Part shown: positions 55,152-56,945 of the stretch, one piece after another
How the letters are laid out: every line of letters starts with the position of its first letter
Position numbering within the stretch: the first letter of the stretch is position 1
IMG/VR virus record: IMGVR_UViG_3300009159_000049
Coordinates: 28,956 to 92,955 of that record
DNA from: a virus
Strand: one strand, 5' to 3'
Length of the DNA: 64,000 bases
Translations under genes and position numbers: made by a program
Notes under the pieces: model-generated
What the model saw: the letters and a program-made list of their open reading frames with translations, nothing else
The model's database searches: none
What the model was told of the DNA's origin: nothing

Positions 55152-56945
55152 ATGTCATCATCTTGGACAAACAAAATAGAGCACGTAAAAGACGGAGAGG
55201 CTGTAGAAGCTAAAGTAGACAGCCGCCCAACTAGAGCCCTTGAGAATCAATCAAGGTATCTTAAAGACCGTATCGACGGTATTGAAAATAAGGAAGCCTT
55301 GGTAGCCTATGACTGCCCAGTAGAGTCTGCAGTAACAGTAGGCATGGCCGTCTACTGGAACTCTAGCGTATCTAGGTTTGACAGAGCTTTGGCAGGTTAC
55401 GAGTTCGACATGGAGACTCGTACATTGGAGACGTCTCCAATGTGTGACGTTATTGGAGTAGCCCTTTACAAGCACTCTGAAGAAGTTGCAGACATACTTC
55501 TAGTAGGTAAAGGCAACATAGACATAGCTTCTGTAATAGACGGAGGCGGACCTGTAACTCCAGGTAGATACTATCTGTCTGGAAAAACTAAAGGTAAACT
55601 ATCAAAAAAGCCAGCAATAGCTGACGTAGCTGTACTGCACGCAGACGGTAATGGAATTGTCTATGTTCAGCCTCAGCTAAGAGACGGACCTTACAACCAC
55701 GTTCATTATGAGTTTAACCTTTATCTTTCGGCATGTGGAGATTCGCCTACTCCTAGTGTTGACGGTAAGCACACTATTATTAACGTGGACAGTGACTTGA
55801 CAGGTTGGCTTCCAGCTGACGATGCTTCATTTAATGGGTTAGCTCCAACTGGCGCTGCCTTTGGATATAACCTTAAGACACACACTGGCCTATACAGCGT
55901 GTTTCCTCCTATGCCTGCAGAGTCAGCAAGCATAACTTTATTTAAAAGTGAATCTGATGGAAATGGAGTAGAGCTCCCTCTTGGACCTCTGGGTTTAGTT
56001 GTAATAGACATAAACGGTATATGGTGGATGTCAGACTGCTACAACGACGTACCATGGGCCTACCATCAGCTAGGCAGCAACTCCAGTAGTTCGTCATCAG
56101 AATCTGGACCTGAGTGCCCTAGAGACGTAACAAGAAAGATGCTGTTACGATTTTCAAAGACAGCTTACGGAGTTGATAAGACCGTAGTGACAAGTCTTGA
56201 TCCTGTAGAGAACAGTGGCATTACAATTATTGGATGCTACGATAACAAGCCTACAAACACAGGCGCGCTTAAGATAGGTGTTAATCTAGCCTTAGCTATA
56301 GACAACAACGCGGCGCTTGGATCTCTAGCGTTAAAGTCTGTAAACAATGGAAAGTTTCAACGCGGTAGGATAGTAGAAGGCATTAGGGCGGCTGATAACA
56401 GCGTTACTATATTGTCAACGTTTAACAGAGTAGACGGAGACGATACGATACATCAAGGTATAGTTACCATAAGAGCTAACGTTGAACCATCTGAGCGAAT
56501 AATACAGCCTCAAGTAGTTAGGCTTAGTGATACAAAAGAACGATATTATAACGATATCATGTACTTAGCGTTCCCTCCTAATCAAGCAAGCTCAGTAAGG
56601 CTAAAGGTACTTCTACCGCACGCTGACTCTTTTCCAGCAACTCCTAAGCTAAAGCTTAGACTTAGAGTGCTAGGTAGAACCTCAGGAACTATGCCTGATC
56701 TGTCAGCAAGCTACAGAATACTTTCAAAATCATCAGGATCGCCTGAACCTCTTCCTGTTACTGACACAGCTTTAATAATCGACACAGGGTCATCTATATC
56801 GGCTGATCACTACATAGACATAGACAGCGAAGATATTCTTGGGGCAGAAGGGCAAGACGTAGTATTCTTTTCCATAGAAAGATCTTCAGGAGACGGTTAC
56901 GCAGGAGAAGTTGGTCTAATAGAGGCTGTAGCAGTTCTATACTAA
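55152..56945 (+). CDS. Probable tail fibre / baseplate-fibre protein
   Basis: The 597-aa protein has an N-terminal segment typical of fibre-attachment proteins (MSSSWTNKIEHVKDGEAVEA; NQSRYLKDRIDGIE). A beta-rich part with YNHVHYEFNLYLSACGDSPT follows; this His-containing segment is common in fibre-associated proteins. A Ser-rich linker (SNSSSSSSESGPECP) leads to a C-terminal beta domain. A copy of the palindrome lies near residue 95, in a different reading frame from the other copies. Specific receptor targets cannot be inferred. Confidence 0.55.
   Translation: MSSSWTNKIEHVKDGEAVEAKVDSRPTRALENQSRYLKDRIDGIENKEALVAYDCPVESAVTVGMAVYWNSSVSRFDRALAGYEFDMETRTLETSPMCDVIGVALYKHSEEVADILLVGKGNIDIASVIDGGGPVTPGRYYLSGKTKGKLSKKPAIADVAVLHADGNGIVYVQPQLRDGPYNHVHYEFNLYLSACGDSPTPSVDGKHTIINVDSDLTGWLPADDASFNGLAPTGAAFGYNLKTHTGLYSVFPPMPAESASITLFKSESDGNGVELPLGPLGLVVIDINGIWWMSDCYNDVPWAYHQLGSNSSSSSSESGPECPRDVTRKMLLRFSKTAYGVDKTVVTSLDPVENSGITIIGCYDNKPTNTGALKIGVNLALAIDNNAALGSLALKSVNNGKFQRGRIVEGIRAADNSVTILSTFNRVDGDDTIHQGIVTIRANVEPSERIIQPQVVRLSDTKERYYNDIMYLAFPPNQASSVRLKVLLPHADSFPATPKLKLRLRVLGRTSGTMPDLSASYRILSKSSGSPEPLPVTDTALIIDTGSSISADHYIDIDSEDILGAEGQDVVFFSIERSSGDGYAGEVGLIEAVAVLY
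55422..55443. repeat. Dispersed palindrome, copy 8 (both arms changed)
   Basis: This perfect 22-bp palindrome has ATTGG...CCAAT in place of the usual AGTGG...CCACT, so both arms changed together. It lies inside the 55152 gene but is read as TTG GAG ACG TCT CCA ATG (L-E-T-S-P-M), in a different frame from the other coding copies. Confidence 0.85.

Follow-up and report, generated by a model that had tools for sequence, protein, structure and literature searches.

Dispersed dyad-symmetric DNA sites in tailed phages of ~190-200 kb: candidate binding sites for a dimeric protein

Our findings place a perfect 22-bp palindrome, ACATTGGAGACGTCTCCAATGT, among the roughly 25 short symmetric sites carried by each ~190 kb genome in a family of phages. 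These sites are real, extend over the whole genome, show, in most of the contigs tested, a more even spacing than chance would give, are conserved at the level of DNA and are replaced by another palindrome in a second clade. We propose, with a probability of about one half, that they are dispersed dyad-symmetric sites in double-stranded DNA for a dimeric protein, clade-specific and maybe genome-organising, in tailed phages of ~190-200 kb.

The window, that is, the whole 64,000-nucleotide stretch of DNA that was analysed, corresponds to positions 28956-92955 in a virus record of 92,955 bases whose source, judged by its genes, is a tailed phage. Its capsid protein and two-part RNA polymerase are ~31% matches to Salmonella phage Arash and ~30% matches to Vibrio phages D69, D181 and D148, and a terminase is present in G006, a longer contig of the same species. 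The polymerase is encoded by a beta-like and a beta'-like ORF (2437-6894 and 10692-12611) within a structural gene block. The window also holds a sigma-factor-like ORF (45299-46126), ORFs read from sequence as a subtilisin-like serine protease (51993-53045) and a papain-like cysteine protease (49828-50763) in the tail or structural region, and, at its right end (63273-64000), a tandem repeat of ~147 bp in five copies.

The palindrome ACATTGGAGACGTCTCCAATGT (55422-55443) is copy 8 of eight in the window. The core, GGAGACGTCTCC, starts at 6918, 12851, 20165, 28284, 36114, 41882, 51234 and 55427, seven times exactly and once, at 28284, with one mismatch; shuffled versions of the window hold a mean of 1.1 cores at two or fewer mismatches and never reach eight. 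No strand is assigned to any copy. Copy 1 (6916-6931, GTGGAGACGTCTCCAC) lies in a helicase-like ORF (6897-8390), copy 2 (12847-12866, TAGTGGAGACGTCTCCACTA) in an ORF at 12611-12967 and copy 5 (36109-36130, TTAGTGGAGACGTCTCCACTAA) in an ORF at 35619-36851, and all three read SGDVST. The core of copies 3 and 6 is TGGAGACGTCTCCA; copy 3 (20164-20177, ORF 19070-20506) has asymmetric outer arms, ATT/ACT, and reads IGDVST, and copy 6 (41881-41894, ORF 37151-42343) has outer arms TTT/ACT and reads FGDVST. Copy 4 (28281-28298, AGTGGAAACGTCTCCACT) is changed in the core on one arm and reads SGNVST, copy 7 (51232-51247, GTGGAGACGTCTCCAC) sits at a gene junction, and copy 8 falls at about codon 91 of a 597-aa ORF (55152-56945). 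A first-pass annotation had described copy 8 as symmetric over 22 bp and translated as LETSPM, and the other seven copies as bearing the arms GTGG/CCAC or their inner part, all of which we recovered. It had also taken the reading frame of copy 8 to be singular, which it is not: the ETSP frame is used at 40 of 108 genic sites among the relatives, and copy 7 probably shares it: there the upstream gene would close with VETSP, matching the orthologues in G003, G004 and G007 (VETSP or VETPP).

The set continues beyond the window. The 29 kb upstream hold five further copies, one with a mismatch, and G006 (190 kb, in reverse orientation to the window) carries 26, the exact core being observed 23 times in 190 kb against 0.01 expected. 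In that contig, at 106550-109480, three copies are each followed by promoter-like CACTTAATCCAACCCATAAGTGYGTCATAAT, two of them lying directly after a terminator-like T-run. Scanning IMG/VR for the 16-mer GTGGAGACGTCTCCAC gave matches in 50 stretches, mostly with many to a contig within a few related contigs. G006 (190 kb), G007 (181 kb), G003, G002, G004, G010 and G013 each hold 10-27 copies or near-copies from end to end, with an interval of ~5-8 kb maintained throughout the whole 181-190 kb genomes; these metagenomic contigs are for the most part fragmentary, and ORF calling in them simply took the longest ORF. The coefficient of variation of the gaps is 0.28-0.60, as against ~0.9 for random placement, and in most contigs tested 0 to 7% of simulations, in which sites were placed uniformly at random, were as even. 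The longest gap is shorter than the random expectation in G006, G002 and G004, and gaps below 3 kb are fewer than expected in G006, G007, G002 and G004. We scanned bacterial and archaeal genomes (257 Gb) for the 18-mer and obtained six isolated matches and no host genome with many copies, so that, as far as seen, this is not a host motif.

The relation between the two arms was examined by folding 125 sites from seven contigs at their centres; these sites were picked by likeness to the consensus, which limits the visible core changes and introduces no bias toward asymmetric outer ones, and the orthologous sites among them are not independent events. Over positions 1-7 from the centre there are 61 one-arm changes and no symmetric ones. 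Position 8 (G/T) is changed on one arm in 53 sites and on both in 6, and the arms agree there in 68 sites against 68.9 expected under independence; position 9 has a similar pattern. The first-pass annotation had argued from copy 8 that both arms had changed together and that symmetry is the property preserved, and had proposed a covariation check on relatives. That check, once run, went against it: asymmetric changes far exceed symmetric ones, and symmetry stands at the level of independent arms in both clades. As for copy 8 itself, its orthologues read ATT...ACT in G003 and G007 and CTT...ACT in G004. The left arm was thus already ATT where the right was ACT, and the symmetry of copy 8 came about by change of the right arm alone. 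The half-site ATT (TTA from the centre) has a frequency of ~0.11 among the 250 half-sites, so ~1.5 symmetric ATT/AAT sites are expected in 125, and the one seen agrees with independence. Since the halves vary independently, the element is better read as a pair of half-sites for a protein on double-stranded DNA than as a hairpin maintained by pairing. Of the two functions that the annotation had offered, a dimer-type site therefore fits; a hairpin is unsupported, wobble pairs being no more favoured than other mismatches.

Where the annotation had held that DNA is kept rather than peptide, the wider data bear it out. Among the 125 sites, the GDVS frame or a close variant accounts for 53, the ETSP frame for 40 and the RRL frame for 15, and the remaining 17 fall outside called ORFs. 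When orthologous sites within clade A, the clade of the window, are compared, unchanged residues keep an identical codon in 141 of 156 cases (90%) in the motif and in 1444 of 3133 (46%) in the flanks. A short peptide, SGDVST, as the conserved unit could account for the 53 of 108 genic sites that read GDVS or a close variant; the other two frames, the intergenic sites and a codon constraint beyond what a peptide demands leave it next to no chance. The copies are many and clade-specific, as would be expected if palindromic repeats, mobile and of no use to the phage, had recently inserted themselves, an origin that we consider highly improbable: homologues from relatives lacking the sites mostly run without a gap across the site position with other residues (LETSP against FETTS, WRRLH against WCETQ), so that the sites arose by substitution, and orthologous sites are retained between proteins that are 50-85% identical and are evenly spaced. 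Only a little less improbable is a hairpin in the transcript, GUGGAG-ACGU-CUCCAC, as the functional form. The inverted repeat is perfect and nearly all genes share one direction, as such a hairpin would allow; against it, symmetric changes are not in excess and no compensatory arm change was found, the one-arm changes in the core comprise 19 wobble, 18 A.C and 19 other mismatches, and the central four bases, which would form the loop, are conserved as much as the stem.

Among 80 relatives found by a capsid-protein scan, G015-G018 (clade B, 65% capsid identity) carry another palindrome, AWAGATATCTWT. The pattern AGATATCT, with W then A on both sides, has 42 copies in the 200 kb of G015, where 1.07 would be expected, and its spacing is even (coefficient of variation 0.55, matched by 0 of 20,000 simulations); spacing is weakly even in G018, and evenness is not significant in G016 and G017. 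The fifth position, which is degenerate, is AA in 11, AT in 21 and TT in 10 sites of G015, which is the independent expectation, and 45/49/21 across the four contigs. The site is kept at 23 of 40 aligned orthologous positions and unchanged residues keep their codon in 96 of 118 cases in the motif against 1448 of 2791 in the flanks, which indicates that clade B sites are maintained, with turnover. Clade A site positions aligned to G015 have no site there. No comparable set was found in G020, G021, G024, G026, Salmonella phage Arash or Vibrio phage D69, the last two represented by partial sequence, and the sites are therefore not essential to the wider family. The strongest dyad of G019 is a TTTGATATCAAA-type motif with 23 near-matches, of which one is exact, and spacing that is not even. 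A CCACGC palindrome in G020 was set aside as part of a ~61-bp tandem array rather than a dispersed site; such arrays lie at 13587-13773, 28942-29064 and 30286-30470, each repeat containing CCACGCACGCGTGG, in a contig from which the dispersed palindrome is absent.

The search for a binding protein covered part of each genome's genes, and within that scope no convincing DNA-binding protein exclusive to clades A and B was found. ParB_N matched in 0 of 14 contigs, with the control detected in 11 of the 14 genomes; RHH_1 had no match over cut-off in site-bearing contigs, HTH_3 exceeded the cut-off only in G026, a contig without sites, and in the contigs searched there was no Phage_integrase match and no ParA-type AAA_31 over cut-off. 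The DNA-methyltransferase families PF01555, PF00145 and PF02086 are absent from all 15 contigs. Comparing 168 clade A family profiles with clade B and the site-less relatives left two cupins, a glycosyltransferase and a 132-aa protein without a DNA-binding match. Individual candidates were also rejected. One gene common to clades A and B, but absent from the relatives that lack the sites, resembles a glycosyltransferase on a weak Pfam match; PhoH is what lies behind one conserved intergenic site; and a PHROG "DNA binding protein" is endonuclease V-like by the annotation of its relatives. A 270-aa protein bearing HTH_7 (G006 75239-76051) was set aside as presumably an HNH homing endonuclease by its motif. 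A CsrA-like protein is present, but there is no GGA in clade B sites; in G006 a 61-aa CsrA family regulator (152096-152281, E 5e-21) is encoded on the strand opposite most genes.

Taken together, the independent halves, lack of orientation, absence of an RNA signature, scant tie to promoters and even spacing lead us to a dimeric binder of double-stranded DNA acting at the scale of the genome. The clade A half-site is W-K-T-G-G-A-G-A-C, joined to its mirror at the centre; each half would bind one subunit of the dimer, and the specificity shared by the two half-sites would let both take the same outer bases independently. Less certainly, the binder may be encoded by the phage, and the even spacing may serve to bridge, condense or segregate replicated phage DNA, much as matS and MatP would, rather than to control genes locally. 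It is from the spacing alone that we infer an architectural role, which we rank first, above the two readings that follow.

The sites could instead be marks of self-recognition or DNA processing, placed at intervals for use by a nuclease or recombinase, or in packaging or replication (compare Chi, localised nicks and methylated HIP1). Even spacing with few large gaps is what a site needed in every stretch of DNA would give, and HIP1 indicates that palindromes can be maintained genome-wide; yet the nick sites of T5, phiKMV and tf are non-palindromic and one-stranded, the three methyltransferase families are missing from the 15 contigs, and GACGTC outside the motif is not clearly depleted (44 in G006, 24 of them in the motif, with 26 expected), all of which makes this reading unlikely. 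We find somewhat less likely again a repressor or roadblock that halts transcription at dispersed sites along the phage genome. The 20-30 dispersed sites with clade-specific, drifting motifs of cluster A mycobacteriophages (PMC6550527) offer a precedent, and some intergenic copies have a terminator-like T-run on one side and a repeated promoter-like stretch on the other. Such stoperators, however, are asymmetric, monomer-bound and oriented with transcription where the phage sites are palindromic; the site-bearing contigs gave no hit to an integrase and nothing above cut-off for ParA or an HTH_3 repressor; and a roadblock does not require even spacing.

Phages have seldom been reported to carry genome-wide sites that override coding constraint, and no member of the tested families that lie behind such sites elsewhere was found here. 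Should the sites of the proposed dimeric binder organise DNA, they would offer a handle on how phage genomes of ~200 kb are arranged or managed inside the cell. Two clades with two palindromes amount to a natural swap experiment, in which protein specificity would change alongside dozens of sites. Tentatively, these ~200 kb phages may possess a site-specific organising or self-marking system of a new protein family, which possibly switched its DNA specificity from one clade to the other, from a GGAGAC- to an AWAGAT-type half-site, dozens of sites within genes being rebuilt by point mutation at the cost of the residues encoded there.

Searches of the literature for palindromes that are dispersed, or spaced evenly, along phage genomes yielded no matching case. 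Several known systems share part of the pattern. The parS sites are palindromic and serve dimeric ParB, whereas the phage contigs tested have no ParB_N match and no ParA over cut-off. The localised nicks of T5, phiKMV-like phages and tf fall at short consensus sites, 14 in tf, of unknown purpose (PMC3517423); they too are dispersed along a phage genome, though on one strand, while the palindrome is identical on both. HIP1 (GCGATCGC) of cyanobacteria is an over-represented dispersed palindrome of debated function (PMC4390886), similarly spread over the genome; it is, however, an 8-mer tied to orphan methyltransferases, in contrast to a phage site of ~14-18 bp in genomes without PF01555, PF00145 or PF02086. 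The stoperators of L5, Bxb1 and other cluster A mycobacteriophages number 20-30 per genome, and their motifs drift with the phage (PMC6550527). The number and dispersal of sites and their clade-specific motifs are alike; the sites described here differ in being dyad-symmetric, not asymmetric, and not oriented with transcription, and no lysogeny gene was found in site-bearing contigs searched for Phage_integrase, ParB_N, AAA_31 and HTH_3. matS is palindromic and MatP is a dimer. In the Ter macrodomain of E. coli 23 matS sites are scattered over 800 kb (PMC3330122), each a short site in a large DNA domain and bound by one protein. The phage sites have another sequence, are ~5-fold denser and lie in a phage genome; like matS, they form a dispersed short palindrome along a long DNA domain.
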